From contig NZ_AULT01000009.1 of assembly GCF_000422425.1 (NCBI RefSeq), positions 62,001-126,000 of the forward strand: DNA of 64,000 bases, read 5' to 3'. Each line of letters starts with the position of its first letter. Within the stretch, counting starts at the first letter, position 1. Position numbers and translations under genes: made by a program. Of the stretch, positions 44,099-55,641 are shown piece after piece. Source of the stretch: Oceanospirillum beijerinckii DSM 7166. GTDB lineage: Bacteria; Pseudomonadota; Gammaproteobacteria; Pseudomonadales; Halomonadaceae. The notes under the pieces were generated by a model. It worked only from the letters and a program-made list of their open reading frames with translations, searched no databases and was not told the DNA's origin.

Positions 44099-44301
44099 TA
44101 TCTGTGACTTTAGTCACAATTTACTGTAGAAATAAGCGCACTTGTGGCGCTTTTTCTGTTATTTGTTTGCCGTTTTTCCCTCTCTCCTGTATTACACTCA
44201 GCAGATTAAAGTGTTTCCCCTACACCCAAAGGGGAGCTTATTTTTTTATAAAAAAACAACTAATATGTATCTTTGTCCTTTATTGTGCAGGAGTGCAAGT
44301 A

Positions 44302-46869
44302 ATGCCCTCTGAGTCATCCGGTGCAGGTATAGGCATCCGGGCCAAACTGGTTGCCTTGTTTCTGGTTATTAAAGTGGTACCCCTGATTCTGCTGGCTTTA
44401 CTGGCCTGGCAAGGGGTGCTGTATCTGGGGGAAGAGCTGGGTAAAGAAACGGACTTGCTCAATAAAGAAGTGCGGGCGACGGTCGCCGATATGGGGGAAA
44501 TCTTCAGTCGGGAGGCGGAGCAGGCACTGAATGACAGGGCGCGTGAAGAGCTGGAGCGCCTGACCACTGATACGGCCCGATCGGTCGCTAACTTTCTGTA
44601 TGACCGTGACCAGGATCTGTTACTGGCGGCCAGCTTGCCAGTGGATGAGCAGAGCTATCGTACTTTTATTCAACAGCGTAGCCGCACTCTCGTATCAGAA
44701 GGTCAGTGGCAACTGGCCAGTGATGGCTCTGCTTGGCAGCGCTTAGATACAGAGCAAAACAACCACCAGAAAGTAACCGCATCCAATCCTGAAAACCGGG
44801 AAAAATTTAATTATCGTGCCCCAGAGGATGTGCTGCCCAGCGAACGTAAGCCTCTTTTTCACGAGATCACCTTTGTCGGTTTGGATGGTCAGGAAAAGCT
44901 GAAAGTACAGACCAGCGATCTGTTACCTCCTGAGCTGAGAGATGTTTCTAAACCTGAGAATACCTGGAGTAAGGCCGAGCACTATTTTGCGGAGCTGCAG
45001 AAGCTTAAGCCTGGGGAGATTTATGTCTCTGATGTGATCGGGCCCTATGTGCCTTCCCGTATTATCGGCCCTGTCACTCCGGCCAGTGCACAAAAGCGTA
45101 ATCTGCCATTTGAACCAGAGAGAGAAGCTTTTGCCGGGAAAGAGAATCCGGTGGGCAAACGCTTTAGAGGCATTGTCCGCTGGGCAACGCCCATTGCCCG
45201 TGATGGTAAGGTTATAGGGTATGTGACTCTGGCACTGAACCATGATCATATTATGGCTTTTACCAATAATCTCCTGCCTAATGAACAGCGTTATACCGCT
45301 ATAGCCGATGCGAGCAACGGCAACTACGCCTTTATGTGGGACTATAAGGACCGCAACATTGTCCACCCGCGTCATCACTCTATCGTAGGCTTCGACCCGG
45401 AAACCGGTGAGCGTGAAACACCTTGGTTAGAAGCCAGTCTGCATGACCGTTGGCAGGAAAGTGGTCTGCCACTGCGTATGTTCCTGGAAGATATTCGTGA
45501 CTTTGATGGCCAAAGCCGCAGTAAGCGCCCTTCTAAGACTTTGATTCAGCAGGGGCTGTTGGGCCTTGAGTGCCGTTACCTGAATTTCGCGCCTCAATGT
45601 AAGGGGTGGTATGACCTGACACAGTATGGTGGTTCGGGCTCCTTTCTGATTCTCTGGAGCGGGGTTTGGAAGCTCACTACAGCGGCGACTATTCCCTATT
45701 ACACCGGGCCTTATGGGGATTCACCCCGTGGATTTGGCTTTGTTACCATCGGTGCCAATATTGATGATTTCCAGCAACCGGCGAAGCAAACCGCTGCCGA
45801 GATGGATGTTAAGGTTGCTGAGTTGAGTGATACGCTGAAGCAGCGCCAGCACGACCTGCTCGATATTATTGCTGATATTATGCAGGATATTGCCATCAAT
45901 CTGAGCGTTTCTACGCTGGTGATGGTTGCGGTTGTTTTTGTGATCGCTATCTGGATGGCTTCTTCTATCACTGGATTGGTGAAATACTTTGCCACAGGGC
46001 TGAAACAGATTGAATCCGGTGATTACAGTTTCCGCTTCGAGCAGCAGCGAAAAGATGAGATCGGTCAGTTGAGTGAAGCGTTAAACCGTATGGCTGACAG
46101 CGTTGAAGCCTCTTTTGAGCTGTCAGATCAGGCGCGCAGGGAAGCCGAGAAAGCGAGTCAGATGAAGAATGACTTCCTGGCCCGTATGTCTCATGAGCTG
46201 CGTACACCTCTGAACGGTATTCTGGGCTTTTCCGAAGTCCTTCAGATGGAACAGAAAGACGCAGAAACTCTGGAATATGCCAATATTATCAACAGCAGCG
46301 GTCGTCATTTACTGCATCTGGTGGATGATATTCTTGATCTGGCCAAGATCGATGCGGGTCAGTTGGTGTTGACTTATCGTTGCATCACGTTGGATGGCTG
46401 GTTGGATAATCTGATCAGTAGTCATCAGCGTAGTGCGGAGAAGAAATCCCTGCTGTTAGTGCTTGAAAATCAGTTGCCTGCGGACTTTGAGCTGGCTGTG
46501 GATGATACACGTCTGCGCCAGATTCTGAATAATTTGGTGGATAATGCGATTAAATTCACCCCTAAAGGCTCAATCCGTCTGCTGGTGAGCGAGCAGGATC
46601 AACAGGTGTGCTTTGATCTGTTTGATAGCGGTGAAGGGATACCTGAATCGGCACAGCCCTACATTTTTGAGGCTTTCCGTCAGGGATCAGAATTTGTGTC
46701 GCGCTATCACGGCGGAACCGGTCTGGGTTTGGCTATTGTCAAGGAGCTGGCTGAGCTGATGGGAGGGCAGGTAACGCTGGTGGCATCCAGTGAACAGGGC
46801 TCTCACTTCCGTTTGTTATTACCACAGGTTGCTATTGAACAGGGTGAGCAGGCACAAGTACGGGCTTGA
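44302..46869 (+). CDS. Membrane sensor histidine kinase with large periplasmic domain
   Basis: 855 residues from ATG 44302 (AGGAG upstream; 66 upstream codons have no support). TM1 is about residues 15-40 (LVALFLVIKVVPLILLALLA), a large periplasmic sensor of roughly 490 residues follows (likely double Cache), then TM2 near 531-555 (TLVMVAVVFVIAIWMASSIT). HAMP (KYFATGLKQIESGDYSFRFE), HisKA with MSHELRTPLNG (His near 631), and HATPase (DNAIKFTPKGS, FDSGEGIPESA, GGTGLGLAIVKELAELMGG) complete it. No receiver domain is attached. The stand-alone receiver gene convergent downstream is a candidate partner. Confidence 0.88.
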   Translation: MPSESSGAGIGIRAKLVALFLVIKVVPLILLALLAWQGVLYLGEELGKETDLLNKEVRATVADMGEIFSREAEQALNDRAREELERLTTDTARSVANFLYDRDQDLLLAASLPVDEQSYRTFIQQRSRTLVSEGQWQLASDGSAWQRLDTEQNNHQKVTASNPENREKFNYRAPEDVLPSERKPLFHEITFVGLDGQEKLKVQTSDLLPPELRDVSKPENTWSKAEHYFAELQKLKPGEIYVSDVIGPYVPSRIIGPVTPASAQKRNLPFEPEREAFAGKENPVGKRFRGIVRWATPIARDGKVIGYVTLALNHDHIMAFTNNLLPNEQRYTAIADASNGNYAFMWDYKDRNIVHPRHHSIVGFDPETGERETPWLEASLHDRWQESGLPLRMFLEDIRDFDGQSRSKRPSKTLIQQGLLGLECRYLNFAPQCKGWYDLTQYGGSGSFLILWSGVWKLTTAATIPYYTGPYGDSPRGFGFVTIGANIDDFQQPAKQTAAEMDVKVAELSDTLKQRQHDLLDIIADIMQDIAINLSVSTLVMVAVVFVIAIWMASSITGLVKYFATGLKQIESGDYSFRFEQQRKDEIGQLSEALNRMADSVEASFELSDQARREAEKASQMKNDFLARMSHELRTPLNGILGFSEVLQMEQKDAETLEYANIINSSGRHLLHLVDDILDLAKIDAGQLVLTYRCITLDGWLDNLISSHQRSAEKKSLLLVLENQLPADFELAVDDTRLRQILNNLVDNAIKFTPKGSIRLLVSEQDQQVCFDLFDSGEGIPESAQPYIFEAFRQGSEFVSRYHGGTGLGLAIVKELAELMGGQVTLVASSEQGSHFRLLLPQVAIEQGEQAQVRA

Positions 46870-47021
46870 GGCTGTGAGCCTTCTGCTCAGAAGAGGCTAT
46901 GTGGACCACTAAAGTGTGAGGTGTTGATCGTTTAGGTGAAGTATCAGTGCCGGAGTCATCGCTTTTATTGTCCGAGTGATAGCGATTGCAGCTAGATCAC
47001 AGGCTGTCTGAATTATAGTGT

Positions 47022-47044
47022 TTAGCCCTTGTGAACAGGGCTAA
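47022..47044. terminator. Hairpin between kinase and receiver genes
   Basis: TTAGCCCT (47022-47029) pairs with AGGGCTAA (47037-47044); the minus-strand stop of the receiver gene lies inside it. No T-run, so it is weak. Confidence 0.35.
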
Positions 47045-47397
47045 GCATTATTTAATGCGGCCAGTAAGCTGTCGACAGAGATGGGTTTAATGATAATGTC
47101 GTCGAAGCCTTCGGACATGATCTGAGACTTTTCCTGTTCCATGGCATGGGCGGTGTAGGCAATAATCTTCAGATGTTTGAGCTCTTCCTGCGCGCGCAGG
47201 CGATGGCAGACCTGAATACCGTCCATCTCCGGCATATTAATATCCAGCAGAACATGACTGAATTCTGCCAGGTCTTGCCGGGCCAGGGTTTCTATACCGC
47301 CAGGCTCTTCAGCCGTTTGCCACCCGAACTTTGCCAGAATGACAGTGGCAATCTTCCGGTTGGAAGGAATATCATCCACAACCAATACTCGTTTCAT
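47041..47397 (-). CDS. Single-domain response regulator (CheY-like)
   Basis: 118 residues, receiver domain only. Acidic pocket VVDD near residue 8, phospho-acceptor Asp in SHVLLDINMPEMDGIQV, Thr in IIAYTAH and Lys in DDIIIKPISVDSL. It has no output domain, so it would act through a partner, by protein contact or in a phosphorelay. It is convergent with the big sensor kinase, whose lack of a receiver makes a pairing plausible. Confidence 0.85.
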   Translation of the reverse strand: MKRVLVVDDIPSNRKIATVILAKFGWQTAEEPGGIETLARQDLAEFSHVLLDINMPEMDGIQVCHRLRAQEELKHLKIIAYTAHAMEQEKSQIMSEGFDDIIIKPISVDSLLAALNNA

Positions 47398-47588
47398 AAC
47401 GCTGCCTTTTTATTCTTTGAACGATAAATTAACAAAAAAAGTGGCGTAATGCTTGGTAAATCCTTTACCAACATGGGAATTCGTCTTCAGATGTCTTGTT
47501 GCCTGAGGATACCAGAGCATCTTTGCAGCATCATGCTGGCTTATGTTGCTAACGGATGTTCAGGCTGGCTCAGCAGTTGAGCGGCTCT

Positions 47589-48476
47589 TTAATGGTGCTG
47601 TTGCTGATAATGATGAATCATAAACTGCACAAACTGCTGAATTACTGCCTGCTCACTTACAGCTTTTGACCAGATCACGGATTGGCACAGGCTCGGTGGT
47701 TGCAGGTGAGACAGTGACAGCGTGGTTAAGCGGCTATCCGGCGGTGTTTCACCCTGAAAAACAAAGGCGATGCCCATGCCTGCAGCCACGGCTTCGCGCT
47801 GGCTTTCCTGTGAGTTAAAGCTGAGTAAGGGCTCCAGGGTAATACCTTGCTGCCAAAGCCACTTATTGACCAAACTCTGGGTTTTAGAGCCGTCAGCCCG
47901 GAAGATAAACCGCTCATTTAACAGGTCCTGGAGAGTGTTTAGCGGTCTCTGCAGGAGTCTATGGTCTATCGGAAGAACCAGCTCCAGGCTTTGTGGCATC
48001 AGATCCAAACGGCGAAACTCAGGGAACTCCTGTTCCGTATGCAGGATGCCGATATCAAACTCCCGTTCCAGTAGTTTGTGCTGTAAGTCCTCAGAACCTG
48101 CCACGATCACATCCAGCTCAGTATCCGGGTATTGATGATGGAAAGCGCCAATCACGGGCATCATTACCTGTGCCGAGCCGATACCTACGCGTAGTACCTG
48201 GCGCTGTCTCCCTTGAACCTGGTTAAGCAGGGCTTCCGCTTTGTGCTCAATCTGCCCTAAGCCGCGGACCTGATCATAGAGTGCCTGACCGTCTGAAGTA
48301 AGGGTCATACCATGACGCCCCCGGTTAAACAGGGTGATCTGATAGTGTTGTTCCAGCCGCTGGAGTTGTTTGCTCAGGCTGGGTTGAGATACCTGAAGCT
48401 GATTCGCCGCCTTGCTTAGAGATTGGCTTTTAGCCACCCAATAGAAAGCCCTGAGTTGATTCATTGAGAGCGGCAT
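47589..48476 (-). CDS. LysR-family transcriptional regulator
   Basis: 295 residues. N-terminal winged HTH: MNQLRAFYWVAKSQSLSKAA, NQLQVSQPSLSKQLQRLEQH. The C-terminal effector-binding domain has VGIGSAQVMMPVIGAFHHQY and AVAAGMGIAFVFQGE, as in CysB/LysR proteins. AGGAAAG lies before the ATG. It is divergent from the aminotransferase fusion gene, the usual layout for LysR control of the adjacent gene. Confidence 0.9.
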   Translation of the reverse strand: MPLSMNQLRAFYWVAKSQSLSKAANQLQVSQPSLSKQLQRLEQHYQITLFNRGRHGMTLTSDGQALYDQVRGLGQIEHKAEALLNQVQGRQRQVLRVGIGSAQVMMPVIGAFHHQYPDTELDVIVAGSEDLQHKLLEREFDIGILHTEQEFPEFRRLDLMPQSLELVLPIDHRLLQRPLNTLQDLLNERFIFRADGSKTQSLVNKWLWQQGITLEPLLSFNSQESQREAVAAGMGIAFVFQGETPPDSRLTTLSLSHLQPPSLCQSVIWSKAVSEQAVIQQFVQFMIHHYQQQHH

Positions 48477-48802
48477 AGATCTTTCCTGACGTATTTTTCC
48501 TGGGAGATGTTCTTGGTGTTTGCTAAGCGTTGTTTTATCGGTCGCGCTGATACGTCTCTGCTTCTGTTGGAGTATGAGGTCATCAGACTAATATTATTCC
48601 ATTAAGCTAAGCTAAATTCACTTAAGATTCACTAAAAGTTAAGTGTTGAGCTGTCATCCTAGTGTCATCTGATGGTTTCGATCTGGCACTTCACTTGAGC
48701 TTGTGCAGAACGGCTAGCCATCAAATTAATGAGCAATCCAATCGATGAATTACCCGGCTAACGATCCATACGCATCTGGCTGGGATGACAAGAGGCGGCA
48801 AC
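48477..48802. promoter_or_regulatory. Divergent LysR/aminotransferase promoter region
   Basis: An inverted repeat CACTTAA (48619-48625) / TTAAGTG (48639-48645) with a 13-bp spacer lies between the divergent genes, and ATTAAGCTAAGCTAAAT direct repeats precede it. These are candidate binding sites of the LysR protein. No gene in this 326-bp stretch. Confidence 0.4.
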
Positions 48803-50977
48803 ATGGCTGAGCAGCTACTGAAAAAAGAAGGCGATATTAATCTGGGCGAACGCCGTCAGCGCTGGCAGGCGGAGTATCTGAATGATAACAGCAGGCAGAT
48901 ACTGAATGATGATAGCCGTTATTTTCTGCATCAGGCGATGTCGACGCCTTGTTTAAACGTATTGGAGAAAGCAGAAGGTATCTGGCTGCAGGATAATCAG
49001 GGCTGCCGTTATATGGATTTCCATGGCAACAACGTGCATCAGGTGGGTTTTAATCACCCCCATATTAACACCGCTCTGAAGCAGCAGCTGGATGAGCTAC
49101 CCTTTTGTACCCGCCGTTATACCAATCAGGTGGCTGTAAACTGTGCGAAAAAGCTGGCTGAGCTGATGCCGGGGGATCTGAACCGTGTGCTGTTTGCGCC
49201 AGGCGGCACCTCAGTTGTGGGTATGGCGCTGAAGCTGGCGCGTATCGTAACGGGACGTCATAAGGTGGTATCGCTCTGGGATTCTTTCCATGGTGCGTCC
49301 ATGGATGCGATTGCGGTCGCCGGTACCCACTCTTTTCAGCAGGGGTTAGGGCCACTGTTGCCAGGTGTAGAACGGATTCCACCCGCTACCCGCTATCGTG
49401 GCATCTGGACTAAGGAAAAACCCGGTAATCAAGGGCAGCTGGAGAGCACTAAAGAATACGATGACCTGGCCTATGCGGACTATCTGGAGTATGTGCTGGA
49501 GCGTGACCCTGAGATCGGGGCTTTTATCGCTGAAACGGTGCGTAATACCGATGCCCAGTTTCCATCTAAGGCGTATTGGCAACGGGTGCGTGAGATCTGT
49601 GATCGTCATAATGTGCTGTTGATTCTGGATGAGATCCCCATTGCGTTGGGTCGTCTCGGTAAAATGTTCGCTTTTGAGCACTACGGTATTGAGCCGGATA
49701 TTCTCTGTTTGGGCAAAGGCCTGGGCGGAGGGATCGTGCCGTTTGCGGCGATGGTGACACGGGATCAGTTTAATATCGCCGAAGAGGTCTCTCTGGGACA
49801 CTATACCCATGAAAAAAGCCCACTGGGTGCGGCAGCAGCACTGGCCACCATTGAGGTGCTTGAGCAGGAAGCGCTGCTGGAAAAAGTGCAGCGGGATGAA
49901 GCCTATATGCGTCAGGCACTGATTAAGCTGGAGCAGAAATATGAACTGATTGGTGATGTGCGGGGCATGGGGCTGCTGTGGGGAATAGAGCTGGTAGAAG
50001 ATCGAATCAGTAAAAAGCGGGCCAGCGAGGCGGCGGAAGCTGTTATGTATCAGTGTCTGAGTCGTGGTCTGTCCTATAAGGTTTCTCAAGGCAATGTGCT
50101 GCAGTTGTCGCCACCTTTGATTATTAGTCGTGAAGAGCTGGATCAGGCGTTGGCGATTCTGGATCAGTCGTTGTTAGCGGTATCTGAGGCGTTTGGTTTT
50201 ACTGTACATCAAGCGTGTACTGCCGGGAATGGCCTGAATCTTAGCGGTACTTTTTCGATGGTGCGCAAAACCGGTGACGACGGTCAGGTTATACCTTCTT
50301 CAACCGTGCCTATGTCCGGGCTGGTTTCACTAAACCCAGATCTCATTAAGGTGCATCACGTCCCCATGATAACGGCTAATCAGGAAACCTTTGTTGAAGC
50401 GGGTTTTGGTGACATTGTGGCGGACTTTGATCAGGCCGAAGTGGATATTGTGACCTGGCCAAAACCGGGTTGGCGCGAGGTGGTTGAAGGCACGGGTAAC
50501 GAAGGAGGTATCACCGAAGGCGAGTTTATCTTTACCTGGGAAGGGGATATGGCCGTGGCCCGTAACCATGCGGTCGATGGTCACTATGTTAGCGGTTGGT
50601 TTGCTGATCCTGCTAAAGCCAGCTTTGATGCCCGCTATCAAGATAAGGATCAAGCCTATGGTGGCCGACGCCAGATCTATGTCCGAGAGGCCAATTATCA
50701 TCCCGATGGATCTCAGATCTTCTATCCACAGGAGCGTACGCCTTTTATCGCACTATTGGCGTTACCGGGTGATGATGTCAAACCGGAAGATTTTATTGCT
50801 TTTTATTGTGATGGCAGTTTTGGTATCAAAATTCATCCGGGTATCTGGCATCAGCCACTGTTTCCTCTGGCAGAACGGGCGGTGTTTAATGATAAACAAG
50901 GTAGGGTACATGCCTGCATTGCTGTGGACTTTGTCAGTGAGTTCGATACTTACCTGTCTATTGCTTTACCTCAGTAG
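48803..50977 (+). CDS. Class III aminotransferase fused to ureidoglycolate-lyase-like domain
   Basis: 724 residues from ATG 48803 (GAGGC upstream). Residues 1-465 are a class III PLP aminotransferase: FLHQAMSTPCLNVLEKAEGI, FAPGGTSVVGMALKLA, SLWDSFHGASMDAIA, the PLP aspartate region LILDEIPIALGRLGKMF (Asp276) and the Lys305 segment CLGKGLGGGIVPFAA. This form resembles the group that includes the (R)-1-hydroxy-2-aminoethylphosphonate ammonia-lyase PbfA, though no phosphonate genes are nearby. Residues about 475-724 resemble ureidoglycolate lyase (AllA): RTPFIALLALPGDDVKPEDF, GIKIHPGIWHQPLFPL. The fused protein is unusual and its reaction cannot be given from sequence. It is divergent from a LysR regulator that probably controls it. 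Confidence 0.8.
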   Translation: MAEQLLKKEGDINLGERRQRWQAEYLNDNSRQILNDDSRYFLHQAMSTPCLNVLEKAEGIWLQDNQGCRYMDFHGNNVHQVGFNHPHINTALKQQLDELPFCTRRYTNQVAVNCAKKLAELMPGDLNRVLFAPGGTSVVGMALKLARIVTGRHKVVSLWDSFHGASMDAIAVAGTHSFQQGLGPLLPGVERIPPATRYRGIWTKEKPGNQGQLESTKEYDDLAYADYLEYVLERDPEIGAFIAETVRNTDAQFPSKAYWQRVREICDRHNVLLILDEIPIALGRLGKMFAFEHYGIEPDILCLGKGLGGGIVPFAAMVTRDQFNIAEEVSLGHYTHEKSPLGAAAALATIEVLEQEALLEKVQRDEAYMRQALIKLEQKYELIGDVRGMGLLWGIELVEDRISKKRASEAAEAVMYQCLSRGLSYKVSQGNVLQLSPPLIISREELDQALAILDQSLLAVSEAFGFTVHQACTAGNGLNLSGTFSMVRKTGDDGQVIPSSTVPMSGLVSLNPDLIKVHHVPMITANQETFVEAGFGDIVADFDQAEVDIVTWPKPGWREVVEGTGNEGGITEGEFIFTWEGDMAVARNHAVDGHYVSGWFADPAKASFDARYQDKDQAYGGRRQIYVREANYHPDGSQIFYPQERTPFIALLALPGDDVKPEDFIAFYCDGSFGIKIHPGIWHQPLFPLAERAVFNDKQGRVHACIAVDFVSEFDTYLSIALPQ

Positions 50978-51162
50978 ATAGCTGTTACAGAGAAGGCTGT
51001 CGTTACGGCTTCAATATGTAATTAAAGTGATGCGTATTGAAGCCAAGGTCAGAGAAAATAAGCGTTTAGCGTTCCAGGGAAAAATTACGGGTGAATTTTT
51101 CGCTAAGCAATGTTAGATTTACGTAACATTCTGTTAATAAGACATAAGAGGGCGCATCTGTA

Positions 51163-52806
51163 ATGCCGCCATTGCCCGCCCGAGTATTCGGACAGCTTTG
51201 CCAGCGTTTCCGGCTGTTATCCGGTCAGCATCCTTTGATGTTTCCTCTTATGGCGCTGTATCTGTGTTCCATGGTGACTGCCAGTCTGATACTGGTCGCT
51301 TGGTTGAGTTATCAGGTGCAGCAGGATGGTGAGCGGGCTCTGGGGCGGTTAGGTCAGTTTATTGCTTATACCAATCAAACGCTGGCCCAGGTTACGCAGC
51401 AACAGCCAGACTGCTCCCCCGATACGGTGACAGGGTTACGGCGGCAGGTCTTTTTAATGGAGCGCATTAAAGAGATAGGGTTGTTTGATCAGAACTTTGC
51501 GATCTATTGTGTCAGTAACCAGGGTGAGGTTGAATTCCGGCTTTTTAAACACACCCGTCAGCGCCTGATTGACTCTTTGAGCGGCACCACTCTGTCGTTG
51601 ACTAAGTCTAAGATCAGCCAGGCCCAGTCCTTATTTATCTATTACCGCAATGAAGCCGGTATGGGAGCCGATGCGTTACTCAGGCCACAGACTTTTATAG
51701 ATCTGGTGAATCAGGAGTTGCGCTTTCGTGATCTCTCTTTGGATATTCAGGTTATCGGGCGCAGTCTGAACCCTGATAAAGTCGCTGAGCCGGTCGCAGT
51801 TGTTGACTCTTTCCTGTTTAAATTACCGGGTTATCCTCTAACACTACGCTTGTGTATTACCGATGAATTACTTGTCCAATATTTGCTTAAACATGCTTGG
51901 TTGGGGCTGTTGTTGGGCAGCATGTTGGGGTTGGCTTATTTTGCTGCCCGATTGCGTCGGCTAAGCCGGAACTCACTGCCGAATGCGCTGCAAAGAGCGA
52001 TAAAGAAAAAAGAGCTGGAGGTGTATTACCAGCCCATCGTTAATCAGAATACGGGCGAGGTTGTAGGGCTGGAAGCTTTGCTGCGCTGGCAACACCCGGA
52101 AGAAGGGTTTATCTCTCCTGGGGTCTTTATTCCTTTGGCTGAGCAGCTGGACCTGATTGTGCCGCTGACAGATTTTGTATTGGATGATGTTTGCCATTGG
52201 CTCTCCCATCAGCCGGAGCTTTTTTCCGGGCGTTACATCTCGATCAATATCAGCCGTGTACATCTATTGCAGCAGGATTTGGCCAGCCAAATCAAGCAGC
52301 GATGCAAAGTTACCCCTCATTTGCCTTCTCATCTGTTGTTGGAGATTACAGAGGATAATGTTTTTTCTGAACATGAGTTGAAGCAGGTCCTGTATCAGTT
52401 TAAAGCATTGAAGGCGTTGGGCATCCGTTTAGCGGTTGATGATTTTGGCACGGGCTATTCAGGGCTCGACTTTATCCGGCGTTACCCCTTTGACGTGCTG
52501 AAGATCGATCAGGTATTTATAAAGAGCCTGGGAGGAGAGTCGGCCGCCAAACCGTTGTTGGAGGCGATTATCAACCTGGCCCAGGAGCTGAATATGCAGG
52601 TGATTGCGGAAGGTATTGAATATTCGTTTCAAGCCCGCAGTTTACAGATTCTGGGTGTCGAGCTGCTGCAAGGCTTTATGTATGCTCATCCAATGCCGAA
52701 GCATAGGGTGACACCATTGCTGTTGCAAGAAGCGCCCTTTGCGGCCGAGGGGGTGTCTAATCGGCTACTGCCGTCGTTGCTACTGACGCAGTCAGGAAAC
52801 GGTTAA
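51163..52806 (+). CDS. Cyclic-di-GMP phosphodiesterase, CSS-motif and EAL domains
   Basis: 547 residues. TM1 is about 25-50 (PLMALYLCSMVTASLILVAW), then a periplasmic CSS-motif sensor (a Cys near residue 86 in QPDCSPDT and another in IYCVSN), then TM2 (AWLGLLLGSMLGLAYFA). The EAL domain follows: GLEALLRWQHPEEGFISPG, LLLEITEDNV, AVDDFGTGYSGLDFIRRYP, LKIDQVFIKSL, VIAEGIEY. Catalytic residues are present, so it should degrade cyclic di-GMP. CSS-EAL proteins are controlled by thiol oxidation of the periplasmic Cys pair. No GGDEF domain in the protein; a cyclase gene follows 390 bp later. Confidence 0.88.
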   Translation: MPPLPARVFGQLCQRFRLLSGQHPLMFPLMALYLCSMVTASLILVAWLSYQVQQDGERALGRLGQFIAYTNQTLAQVTQQQPDCSPDTVTGLRRQVFLMERIKEIGLFDQNFAIYCVSNQGEVEFRLFKHTRQRLIDSLSGTTLSLTKSKISQAQSLFIYYRNEAGMGADALLRPQTFIDLVNQELRFRDLSLDIQVIGRSLNPDKVAEPVAVVDSFLFKLPGYPLTLRLCITDELLVQYLLKHAWLGLLLGSMLGLAYFAARLRRLSRNSLPNALQRAIKKKELEVYYQPIVNQNTGEVVGLEALLRWQHPEEGFISPGVFIPLAEQLDLIVPLTDFVLDDVCHWLSHQPELFSGRYISINISRVHLLQQDLASQIKQRCKVTPHLPSHLLLEITEDNVFSEHELKQVLYQFKALKALGIRLAVDDFGTGYSGLDFIRRYPFDVLKIDQVFIKSLGGESAAKPLLEAIINLAQELNMQVIAEGIEYSFQARSLQILGVELLQGFMYAHPMPKHRVTPLLLQEAPFAAEGVSNRLLPSLLLTQSGNG

Positions 52807-53197
52807 GTCAGAAATTCTGATAGAGCAAACAAACTAAATCTCTGGTTTTATTGTATAACTCTTATTTATAATACCTCTTTTATGTTGCAGGCTGGTGTGC
52901 AATGGATCTTTTTCTCTGCAACACAACCGTCAGCTTAAAGCAGTATATTGCTAGCAATACTACTGCCGTTGTACTCGTACTCCTTGTTGCGCAATGATCT
53001 ATACTCAAACAGTTCTTTGGTAATTATGTAACAATGTGTAATCCTTTCAGTTTTGAGTCATCAATCTCGATTATTCCTGCCATAGATTATGAGTGAACCG
53101 TTATGATTCCTTATGGGACAGGTTTTCTCTATAAAACCGGCTATTAAAGAGATAGCGTGATGGATATACGTCCCGGATGGACGATGGAGAGTGTTTG
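52807..53197. other. Intergenic region before PAS-GGDEF gene
   Basis: About 390 bp. A 31-codon ORF from ATG 52902 (MDLFLCNTTVSLKQYIASNT, ending in a hydrophobic VVLVLLVAQ) lacks a convincing ribosome site. No strong hairpin or repeat was seen. The promoter of the GGDEF gene must lie in its right part. Confidence 0.35.
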
Positions 53198-54817
53198 ATG
53201 AGCATATGCTCAGTATTAAGTCAGTTAAGACAAGCCTATCTGGTGGTTGATCTGAATGATTGGCAGCCCGTACTGCTGAATCAGGAGGCTTGCCTGTTAC
53301 TGTGTGAAAACCTGGACTCTCTGAATCACAGTAAGCTATGGCATAACACCCTGTTACCAGTATTGAAACAGGCGGATAAGGCCCATGATTCTGTGTTTTT
53401 CCATCAGCAGACGCTATTCCAGCTATATTTGTCCAAAGTTGAAGAGGATGGCTGTGAGTATCTGGCTGCCTCAATTACCAAAGCAGCGCCATCAAAAGAG
53501 CAACTGCACAATCTATTTAGTCTGCTGGATAATCTGGGTGCTTATGTCTACTGCAAGGATACACAGTACAACTATAGCTTTGTAAACCGTCAGGTCTGTG
53601 AACTCTTCTCTGCGTTGCCGGAGCAGATTATCGGGCGCAATGACAGGGCTTTTTTTGGAGAAGAAAGCGGTCTTCGCCTGATCAGGGAAAGTGATCATTT
53701 TGTTATTGAGCAGGGACAGGTGATTGAGAGGGAGGAGGTGAATTTTATTCCTCATCTCAATGAATACCGGCATTACCTGACGGTAAAAAAGCCCTTGTTC
53801 GATGATAGCGGTCAGATTACAGGTCTATTTGGTATCTCAACGGATATTACTGAGCTGAAACGCACACAGCAGCAGCTGTTTGAGAGTGAACAGCAATTGA
53901 GCACCATTCTGGATAATGTGGGTGCGTATATTTTTATTAAAGACCGTAATTGTTGCTTCCGTTATATCAACAAGAAAACTGAAGAACTATTCCAGAGAAA
54001 CAGCGCTGAGGTGGTAGGTCTGAACAATCTTGAATTGCTGGGTGAAGAGCAGGCCGCTGAGTTTGACCGTACCGATGTCCAGGTGTTTGAATCGGGTCAG
54101 CGTATCGACTGCCTGGAAACGTTTCAATTGGAAGATGAAGTGCGCTACTACTGGACGGTTAAGATTCCTCTCTGCTCTGATCAGGGAGATGTTGAGCGAT
54201 ATATTGGTATCTCTACGGATATCACAGAGCAGAAACGGTTGGAAAATGAGCTGCGAGAGTCGAACAAATGTCTGGAGCAGCAGCTGGAAGAGATTGGGCG
54301 TTTAAAAGATGAGCTGCATATTCAGGCAACTCATGATGCCTTAACAGGCCTCTATAACCGGCGCTTTCTGGAAGAGCACGCCGAGTTGGCCTTTACTGAT
54401 AGTCAGCGTGGTTCTGCCAGTATTCTGATGGTGGATGTGGATCACTTTAAACAGGTGAATGACACTCTAGGGCATCAACTGGGAGATGAAATCCTGCAGC
54501 TTCTGGCTCGGGTGATGATAGATGAATGCCGCACCAATGATCTGGTCTGTCGGTATGGCGGCGAGGAGTTTTTGATTCTGCTACCCAATGCCGATGCGGA
54601 TGTGGCCTATCAAAAAGCGGAGTGGATTCGCAAGGCCTATGAGATTGAAGTTGCCAGACATTTTCCGCAAGCGGGTGGCAGCAGTATCTCTATTGGTGTC
54701 GCTGCTTCGCCAAAGCACGGGCAGGATTTTATTAAGGTCTATCAGGCTGCTGATGAAGCTTTGTATCAAGCTAAAGCACTGGGGCGTAACCGTACTGTAC
54801 GTGCAACCAACGGATGA
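53198..54817 (+). CDS. Diguanylate cyclase with two PAS domains
   Basis: 539 residues from ATG 53198 (GGAGAG 7 nt upstream). Two similar PAS units (LFSLLDNLGAYVYCKDTQYN ... GISTDITELKR and LSTILDNVGAYIFIKDRNCC ... GISTDITEQKR) are followed by a short coiled-coil linker. The GGDEF domain has ATHDALTGLYNRRFLEEH, the active-site RYGGEEFLILLP (GGEEF near 454-458) and the inhibitory I-site RTND five residues before it. Likely an active, product-inhibited c-di-GMP synthase, paired in function with the EAL gene upstream. Confidence 0.9.
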   Translation: MSICSVLSQLRQAYLVVDLNDWQPVLLNQEACLLLCENLDSLNHSKLWHNTLLPVLKQADKAHDSVFFHQQTLFQLYLSKVEEDGCEYLAASITKAAPSKEQLHNLFSLLDNLGAYVYCKDTQYNYSFVNRQVCELFSALPEQIIGRNDRAFFGEESGLRLIRESDHFVIEQGQVIEREEVNFIPHLNEYRHYLTVKKPLFDDSGQITGLFGISTDITELKRTQQQLFESEQQLSTILDNVGAYIFIKDRNCCFRYINKKTEELFQRNSAEVVGLNNLELLGEEQAAEFDRTDVQVFESGQRIDCLETFQLEDEVRYYWTVKIPLCSDQGDVERYIGISTDITEQKRLENELRESNKCLEQQLEEIGRLKDELHIQATHDALTGLYNRRFLEEHAELAFTDSQRGSASILMVDVDHFKQVNDTLGHQLGDEILQLLARVMIDECRTNDLVCRYGGEEFLILLPNADADVAYQKAEWIRKAYEIEVARHFPQAGGSSISIGVAASPKHGQDFIKVYQAADEALYQAKALGRNRTVRATNG

Positions 54818-54891
54818 CAGAAGTTTTTATCGTAATTTTTGGTGGATTCTCACGGAGGTGAATCAGAATATATCCAGATCTGGGAGGTTGT

Positions 54892-55641
54892 ATGAAAGTG
54901 TTTGGCAAGTTGGGGTTCTTATTCTCTTTGGCTCAGTTTGGTCATGCAGCGATGGCTGAAGAACCGAAACGGGCTGTTAATATGGCCTGTGCTATGTTCC
55001 CTCCTTATAAAATAGAAAGTCGTAAGCCTGAAGTACCCCACTCCGGTATTGACCTGGATGTAGTGCGGGAGGCTTTTGCTGTAACAGGGCGCGAGGTGAG
55101 CTTCTCCTTCTTTCCCTGGAAACGGACTGTAAAAATGACCGAGCGAGGAGAGGCAGATGCTTTGTGTGGTTGCGCCTATCGTCCGGAAAGGGAAGAGATG
55201 TTTATCTATTCCGATATGCTGGGTTTACACAGCCAGGGCATTTTTGTCAGCGCTGGCAGCTCGCTTAAAACGGTTGATTCCCTGGATGATTTAAAAGGAC
55301 ACAGTATTGCCGCTGTCAGAGGCTATGCCGTTCATAGTGAGTTAAAAGCTTGCGGGGATATTAGGGCGGTGGAAGCTAATGATGATGATCAGTTATTACG
55401 TTTACTGAGTGCCAATCGGGTTGATGCGATCTATTCCTATCGGGATATTGTACTTTATCGTATGGCAATGGGTTCCGATAGCCGTAAAATTCGTTATTTT
55501 GAATTCAGCAGCCAGCCTTATTACCTATGTTTCTCACGCAAACAGTCAGATATTCAATCCATCGTGGATGATTTTAATCGCGGCTTAAGAGTGATCCGTT
55601 TTAATGGTCGCTATCAGGATATCTGGCAGAGTTATCGCTAG
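54892..55641 (+). CDS. Periplasmic solute-binding protein, family 3-like
   Basis: 249 residues. The signal peptide is KLGFLFSLAQFGHAAMAEE. The mature protein has VNMACAMFPPYKIES, SGIDLDVVREAFAVTGREVS, FFPWKRTVKMTERGEADALC and SLDDLKGHSIAAVRGYAVHS, the amino-acid-binding (SBP_bac_3) pattern. It lies right behind the diguanylate cyclase with no permease genes, so it may be a stand-alone sensor component rather than a transporter part. GGGAGG precedes the ATG. Confidence 0.82.
   Translation: MKVFGKLGFLFSLAQFGHAAMAEEPKRAVNMACAMFPPYKIESRKPEVPHSGIDLDVVREAFAVTGREVSFSFFPWKRTVKMTERGEADALCGCAYRPEREEMFIYSDMLGLHSQGIFVSAGSSLKTVDSLDDLKGHSIAAVRGYAVHSELKACGDIRAVEANDDDQLLRLLSANRVDAIYSYRDIVLYRMAMGSDSRKIRYFEFSSQPYYLCFSRKQSDIQSIVDDFNRGLRVIRFNGRYQDIWQSYR

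Follow-up and report, generated by a model that had tools for sequence, protein, structure and literature searches.

The closest described system to the locus reported here is the breakdown of (R)-1-hydroxy-2-aminoethylphosphonate (R-HAEP) by the ammonia-lyase PbfA, which leads from R-HAEP to phosphonoacetaldehyde and on to phosphate. PbfA was discovered through the linkage of its gene to phn clusters, which is not a condition of its activity. AllA, the other enzyme of concern, is a cupin whose reaction splits the C-N bond of a hemiaminal. The PbfA of Vibrio functions without an AllA-like C-terminal domain (PMC8154272), and its enamine is assumed in that account to hydrolyse after release (Zangelmi et al., PMC8154272). 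The FAD enzymes PbfB-D are described as ancillaries of phosphonate clusters (PMC10590968), LysR regulators recur at C-P hydrolase operons according to a review (PMC10574752), and AllA is reported to be a nickel enzyme with metal-binding relatives, the DUF4867 proteins (PMC11968277). Judged by titles and the openings of abstracts, no paper on a fusion of PbfA with an AllA-like domain was found among those listed; the main texts of PMC8154272 and PMC12366243 contain neither ‘fused’ nor ‘fusion’, and ‘fused’ is also absent from PMC10590968.

The fusion gene and its N-terminal half

In our analysis of the window (the whole stretch of 64,000 nucleotides of Oceanospirillum beijerinckii DSM 7166 that was analysed), the fusion gene was found to be a single open frame, without interruption, through to 50977 [Table 1]. 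The longest frame begins with an ATG at 48785 and encodes 730 aa; the alternative start at 48803 gives 724 aa. By Pfam, residues 48-456 match Aminotran_3 (275 bits) and residues 632-695 match Ureidogly_lyase (PF04115), the latter with 46.5 bits, which passes the gathering cut-off of 23 and spans only model positions 75-138 of 162. The linker between the two parts has no stop codon and no apparent ribosome-binding site before its in-frame starts. The fusion of PbfA with an AllA-like domain in one frame is real, and the original prediction of a class III PLP enzyme of the PbfA type joined to an AllA-like domain is borne out by the single frame and both Pfam domains, as is its divergent LysR gene, separated from the 48803 start by 326 nt. 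Its estimate of about 250 residues for the AllA-like domain was too generous, for the Pfam match covers 64 residues and the family-homologous region about 220; the AllA-like character itself stands. The PLP lysine and aspartate that it named are also present: K305 and D276, which in a class III aminotransferase would be the Schiff-base Lys and the PLP Asp, are unchanged across an 18-protein alignment, and the enzyme is probably active.

Table 1. Features of the fusion locus, in window coordinates.
Feature	Position	Strand	Basis
LysR regulator, aminoethylphosphonate type	47589..48476	-	best model TIGR03339; loci of relatives
Inverted repeat CACTTAA-N13-TTAAGTG, candidate LysR operator (putative function)	48619..48645	.	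sequence inspection
Predicted Pho box CTGTCAT-N4-GTGTCAT, 13/14	48651..48668	+	consensus match, simulation, shuffles
Likely ribosome-binding site AAGAGG, 7 nt 5' of start 48803	48790..48795	+	sequence inspection
Fusion gene, PbfA-type PLP lyase and AllA-like domain, 724 aa	48803..50977	+	ORF call, Pfam, NCBIfam
PbfA domain, residues 8-458	48824..50176	+	NF049939, PbfA-specific columns, tree
Asp276 codon	49628..49630	+	invariant column in 18-protein alignment
Lys305 codon	49715..49717	+	invariant column in 18-protein alignment
Linker, residues 459-504, poorly conserved	50177..50314	+	comparison with relatives
C-terminal AllA-like domain, residues 505-724 (about 220)	50315..50974	+	end-to-end homology to stand-alone proteins, one family
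PF04115-similar core, residues 632-695	50696..50887	+	Pfam 46.5 bits; profile-profile comparison with AllA

Several lines of evidence bear on the identity of the N-terminal half. It scored 713.4 bits against the NCBIfam model for PbfA (NF049939, cut-off 525) and 754 bits against PRK06082 (cut-off 467), passing both, and the other models among the best 25 of 77 stayed under 300 bits and under their own cut-offs. The genome holds 12 class III matches, of which the fusion alone exceeds the PbfA cut-off and the other 11 fall below it. Identity is 60-62% to three Vibrio PbfA proteins, each encoded between phnW and phnX, and 47% to the Ruegeria PbfA, encoded beside phnW, phnA and phnY. We then compared the fusion with five cluster-linked PbfA proteins (three from Vibrio, one each from Ruegeria and Azospirillum) and defined 39 PbfA-specific columns as those invariant in the five and absent from seven further class III enzymes that the genome encodes, which by construction retain 0/39. 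The fusion retains 34 of these, the changes being at residues 33, 175, 176, 235 and 236, together with 126 of the 142 columns invariant among the five references; proteins from Ensifer, Sinorhizobium and Shinella retain 39/39, and a Devosia protein below the PbfA cut-off 24/39. In a tree of 18 rows, which took in 10 of the 20 plasmid matches listed, the N-half is sister to the three Vibrio PbfA proteins with support of 99/98. The N-half is thus very probably PbfA proper, and the earlier wording "related to PbfA", correct as to kinship, was too cautious in view of the curated cut-off, the PbfA-specific residues and the tree, all of which say PbfA.

No gene of purine or allantoin catabolism was found among the eight window proteins scanned with Pfam and NCBIfam, fusion included. 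Besides the LysR, the scanned neighbours comprise a MATE transporter and a run of signalling genes round the fusion (window 44104-55641), namely a histidine kinase, a response regulator, an EAL protein with a CSS motif, a PAS-GGDEF protein and a solute-binding protein; none of them resembles a gene of phosphonate or purine catabolism.

Promoter, regulator and phosphonate genes of the genome

The predicted Pho box (CTGTCAT-CCTA-GTGTCAT) lies 116 nt upstream of the ATG at 48785, and its score refers to the general Pho-box consensus. An equally good site (one mismatch or fewer) occurred in 0 of 60 simulated 64-kb sequences and one as good in 0 of 200 local shuffles, statistics that are post hoc as the site was first spotted by eye and then tested. 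Genome-wide there are three one-mismatch sites. Besides the one at the fusion promoter, one sits between a PstS-family gene, which it directly follows, and an ORF of 760 aa that by its position is probably pstC, and one falls inside an ORF on another contig (C5), probably by chance. A two-mismatch site was found 59 nt 5' of phoB (TIGR02154, 359.7 bits, cut-off 296.2). When up to two mismatches were allowed, the genome gave 57 sites against 29 for a reversed control pattern, so that roughly one in two of the weaker sites is noise. The contig of the fusion also carries, outside the window and some 75 kb ahead of the fusion, genes for PstS-family, PhoR-like and PhoB proteins (G000:C7:24910-35753).

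For the divergent regulator, TIGR03339 (phn_lysR) is the top NCBIfam model, yet its score of 186.9 bits is below the curated cut-off of 341.1; five LysRs encoded beside PbfA or phosphonate/phosphite genes scored 263-330 in four cases and 351 in one. To five sampled LysRs beside PbfA or phn genes the window LysR is 28-31% identical. Among its plasmid relatives, seven of the best 30 of 3087 are within 6 kb of a PbfA-like match, one of these matches (Devosia) being below the PbfA cut-off. The surroundings of five of the best 30 were read, and four of them (Vibrio pelagius, Halomonas, Azospirillum and Haematobacter) are at phosphonate or phosphite genes; the fifth, from Agrobacterium pusense, adjoins a sugar-type ABC transporter instead. 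In LysR trees the window protein sits on a long branch and its placement is not settled. Taken at the level of sequence, the promoter and the kinship of the regulator point to phosphonates. A divergent LysR-PbfA pair is also present on plasmid pT173d of Ensifer canadensis (L068:2986-5350), with no phnWX or phnWYA cluster in the stretch read and with a LysR that is 30% identical to that of the window. Such pairs outside phn clusters may be missed by cluster-based censuses.

The partner enzymes are encoded elsewhere in the genome, on contig C19, where the gene for PhnX (339.7 bits, cut-off 220) adjoins that for PhnW (518 bits, cut-off 400.8) beside those for PhnS2, PhnT2 and PhnU2, all above their cut-offs, and for a PhnR-like regulator that is below its cut-off (231 against 296.75 bits). 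The fusion gene is on contig C7 and so in neither a phnWX nor a phnWYA cluster. Since PhnX occurs in the same genome, phosphonoacetaldehyde made by the fusion could be hydrolysed in the same cell. Of 275 genomes examined in the family, this one alone yielded a PbfA above the cut-off (E limit 1e-140, five candidates per genome scored among the matches listed), which suggests that the pbfA half was acquired laterally. Between the phnR-like and phnS2 genes of contig C19 we noticed an ORF resembling FAD oxidases (L052:11346-12611, minus strand), for which no model passed (best ThiO, 88.6 bits, cut-off 250.8) and which may belong with PbfB/C/D; 50 nt 5' of it there is a poor match to the Pho box (11/14).

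The C-terminal domain and its stand-alone relatives

By its end-to-end homology, the C-terminal domain belongs to a family without a name, whose members measure about 220 residues and stand alone in other bacteria. The nearest relatives are stand-alone proteins in a draft genome of the same order (G043; 64% identity over the match) and in a genome from a bog metagenome (56%). The family is sparse: with the fusion genome counted in, searches at E ≤1e-15 detected it in 2/390 genomes from the order and 4/369 from the class, and a search at E 1e-12 in 3/398 from the phylum. One other order carries it in 11 of 17 genomes. A scan of genome contigs returned one stand-alone relative, viral contigs and phages returned none, and 0 of the 1855 matching plasmid records cover 80% of the fusion protein. 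No second fusion was seen, for none of the matches listed lies in a frame longer than 318 aa in sets of 58, 390, 369, 398 and 17 genomes (overlapping, own genome excepted); the genome studied here is thus the single one to show PbfA fused with the AllA-like domain.

A profile built from seven proteins of the family matched the AllA structures 1XSQ, 1XSR, 1YQC and 2BDR with E 6e-12 to 7e-11; we regarded the ribosomal-protein matches of that search (E from 0.0009) as fortuitous. Profile-profile comparison with eight AllA proteins gave a probability of 98.4% over 84 columns. The eight come from 11 loci tried, of which L011, L014 and L032 yielded no frame; we also discarded three frames as spurious and overlapping. 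In the columns equated by the profile-profile alignment, the Glu of the AllA motif LExHP (ExH) is present in 8/8 aligned AllA proteins, and Asn occupies its place in 20/20 members of the C-domain family, all of which retain the His, the Gln and the later Trp-His of the AllA core. From this exchange we infer that the metal site is altered relative to AllA. The C-domain of the fusion retains nearly all family-conserved columns, the exception being one Ser for Gly, and it is therefore probably still under selection. No PF04115 match besides the fusion was found in the genome. Predicted structures of the C-domain were unusable (mean pLDDT 32 alone and 34 with one relative).

We examined co-occurrence with PbfA in 16 genomes that have a separate C-domain gene, the stand-alone loci L035-L037 being left out. 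PbfA above the cut-off is present in three (G043, G507 and G627, in two of nine genera) and missing in the other 13, a weak Rosetta-stone pattern. In G043, pbfA follows phnW and is split into two overlapping frames (L131:13360-14725, minus strand) by decay or sequencing error; in G627, genes for an AEP transporter come after pbfA, and in G507 the start of one precedes the end of the contig. Near the G043 pbfA there are also a phosphonatase-like hydrolase (TIGR03351, above cut-off) and a PhnR-like regulator.

The contexts of the stand-alone genes were read at 19 loci, several ending at contig ends. One genus has five such genes with a divergent LysR, as in the fusion (L060, L120, L121, L122 and L123); the two of these LysRs that were scored have TIGR03339 as best model, with 269 and 259 bits, below the cut-off, and the next model at 149. 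Four plasmid relatives of that genus's LysR were divided, two being beside phnWYA or phnWX and two not. A convergent choline-sulfatase-type gene (TIGR03417; the L060 copy, which alone was scored, gave 627 bits against a cut-off of 433) occurs in four of the five loci, and additional genes are common to four or five, as expected for close relatives of one genus. Elsewhere the neighbours are mixed. An ABC-transporter ATPase family, of a very common kind, is found at 8/19 loci at varying distance. At L118:3341-7784 (plus strand) the AllA-like gene ends a same-strand run of a carbohydrate kinase, a HAD hydrolase, a weakly aldolase-like protein and an unassigned 152-aa ORF, an arrangement that resembles an operon for a sugar kinase, a HAD protein and an aldolase. 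Two genomes of a single genus (L053:507-2173 and L055:7159-8790) have the gene closely behind a PF03372 endonuclease/exonuclease/phosphatase-family gene, a possible operon; at L126 it adjoins a creatinase/prolidase-fold gene, and at L125:2269-6373 (plus strand) a binding-protein-dependent ABC transporter lies directly 5' of it, for one of whose permeases the AEP permease is the best NCBIfam model (65.7 bits, cut-off 247). A tblastn search of about 300 kb near stand-alone genes with PbfA, PhnW, PhnX, PhnA and PhnY gave two weak matches only (28% and 30%). Convincing Pho boxes were not found before the stand-alone genes, the best match being below 11/14 at 18 of 19 loci with shuffle p of at least 0.115; the 11/14 match at L124 (p 0.01) is at about chance level among 19 loci.

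Readings of the fusion and comparison with known systems

The PbfA identity of the N-half, the phnWX partner pathway, the Pho box and the kinship of the LysR, all with computed support, make this very probably a phosphorus-scavenging gene and not part of an unknown amino-acid pathway, and we are confident of the PbfA identity and the scavenging role together. From there we infer the activity on R-HAEP, the control by PhoB and LysR, and the entire role of the C-domain. We propose, with a probability of about 0.4, that the fusion is a phosphate-starvation-inducible, substrate-controlled phosphonate-scavenging enzyme in which the C-domain completes the PbfA reaction. The N-domain would act as R-HAEP ammonia-lyase, with PLP-dependent elimination of water from R-HAEP giving an enamine/imine and then phosphonoacetaldehyde and ammonia; the C-domain would resolve the enamine/imine, or its carbinolamine, to the aldehyde and ammonia; and PhnX, on its separate contig, would free the phosphate. 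PhoB would induce the gene in phosphate starvation, and LysR would place it under control of the substrate. A role after PbfA is preferred because the carbinolamine between enamine and phosphonoacetaldehyde resembles the hemiaminal substrate of AllA, and action of the C-domain on the PbfA product has a little less than an even chance. What counts against the proposal as a whole is the off-cluster position of the gene, the loss of the AllA Glu, the 13/16 genomes without PbfA, the mixed contexts of the stand-alone genes with neither good Pho boxes nor more than two weak phn-type matches near them, the two of four relatives of their LysR that are away from phosphonate loci, and the Vibrio PbfA, which does its work with no such domain.

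Conceivably, the C-domain works on the PbfA substrate instead, which we consider rather unlikely: it would precede PbfA and supply R-HAEP, for instance through epimerisation of S-HAEP or through release of R-HAEP from an N-substituted derivative. The NAD-dependent racemase PbfF is described as supplying PbfA from S-HAEP in some Alphaproteobacteria (PMC12366243), and cupins are reported to include epimerases (PMC11968277); the possible sugar operon at L118 would also suit an epimerase or isomerase, and the three genomes with both genes fit such a role, against which stands the lack of PbfA in most genomes that carry the stand-alone gene. Of similarly low probability is that the C-domain is a passenger with an unrelated or general job (lyase, isomerase, detoxification, structure or regulation), joined by loss of the stop codon between neighbouring genes. 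The restriction of the fusion to a single genome and the mixed neighbours of the relatives speak for a passenger, and the retention of nearly all family-conserved columns, by which the domain is probably still selected, speaks against it. That single genome would also suit two separate genes joined through sequencing or assembly error, and the split pbfA in the order-mate draft indicates that errors or decay do occur; nevertheless, with an unbroken frame, homology on both sides, a linker free of stops and apparent ribosome-binding sites, and a genome 99.05% complete and 0.17% contaminated, such an artefact is quite improbable.

Least probable is the route suggested by the original prediction, an undescribed pathway in which the AllA domain would cleave a ureido- or hydroxyglycine-type compound derived from an amino acid or amide. 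It draws on the PF04115 similarity of the C-half and is opposed by the PbfA identity, the phnWX genes, the phosphonate-type promoter and regulator, the replaced AllA Glu and the want of any other PF04115 gene. Against its statement that it knew of no described pathway needing the pair, a pathway is described for the N-half, with PhnW and PhnX in the genome, and it applies here because cut-off, residues and tree all identify the N-half as PbfA.

Returning to the preferred reading, in which the C-domain acts after PbfA, a broader view is that the C-domain represents a new enzyme family of phosphonate catabolism, in which a cupin descended from AllA and changed in its metal site acts on the same small molecule as PbfA; we hold this tentatively, at somewhat less than the proposal above. 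After PbfA it may resolve the enamine or carbinolamine, a RidA-like task taken on by a cupin and fused for channelling; before PbfA it may be a HAEP epimerase or carry out a de-protection. The stand-alone copies under phosphonate-type LysRs would catalyse a like reaction on related amines. An unnamed and sparse protein family is now tied to a defined pathway. Should the C-domain prove to act on what PbfA consumes or makes, one could tell whether the reactive enamine of a PLP lyase needs a finishing enzyme in phosphonate breakdown, or else another route for S-HAEP into the pathway would come to light.

Compared with AllA (1XSQ, 2BDR), the C-domain shares the core motif HPxGxQxF ... WH, and it differs in length (about 220 residues against about 160), with likeness reported for the core only, and in having Asn where AllA has its invariant Glu, two residues before the His. 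Because of this exchange and the core-only likeness we do not call it a ureidoglycolate lyase, and PF04115 matches of about 220 residues should not be so annotated without a test. The DUF4867 cupins (SftX and a Bacillus homologue), likened here by their description only, are likewise AllA-related and work in a catabolic pathway, sulfoglycolysis, without an obvious missing step, with two His and two Glu as metal ligands (PMC11968277). The Vibrio PbfA proteins of phnWX clusters are the nearest counterparts of the whole N-half, which is alike in the curated model, the 60-62% identity, the PbfA-specific residues and the PLP residues; the fusion differs from them in about 265 additional C-terminal residues, in its position outside the phnWX cluster and in a divergent LysR and Pho box of its own.
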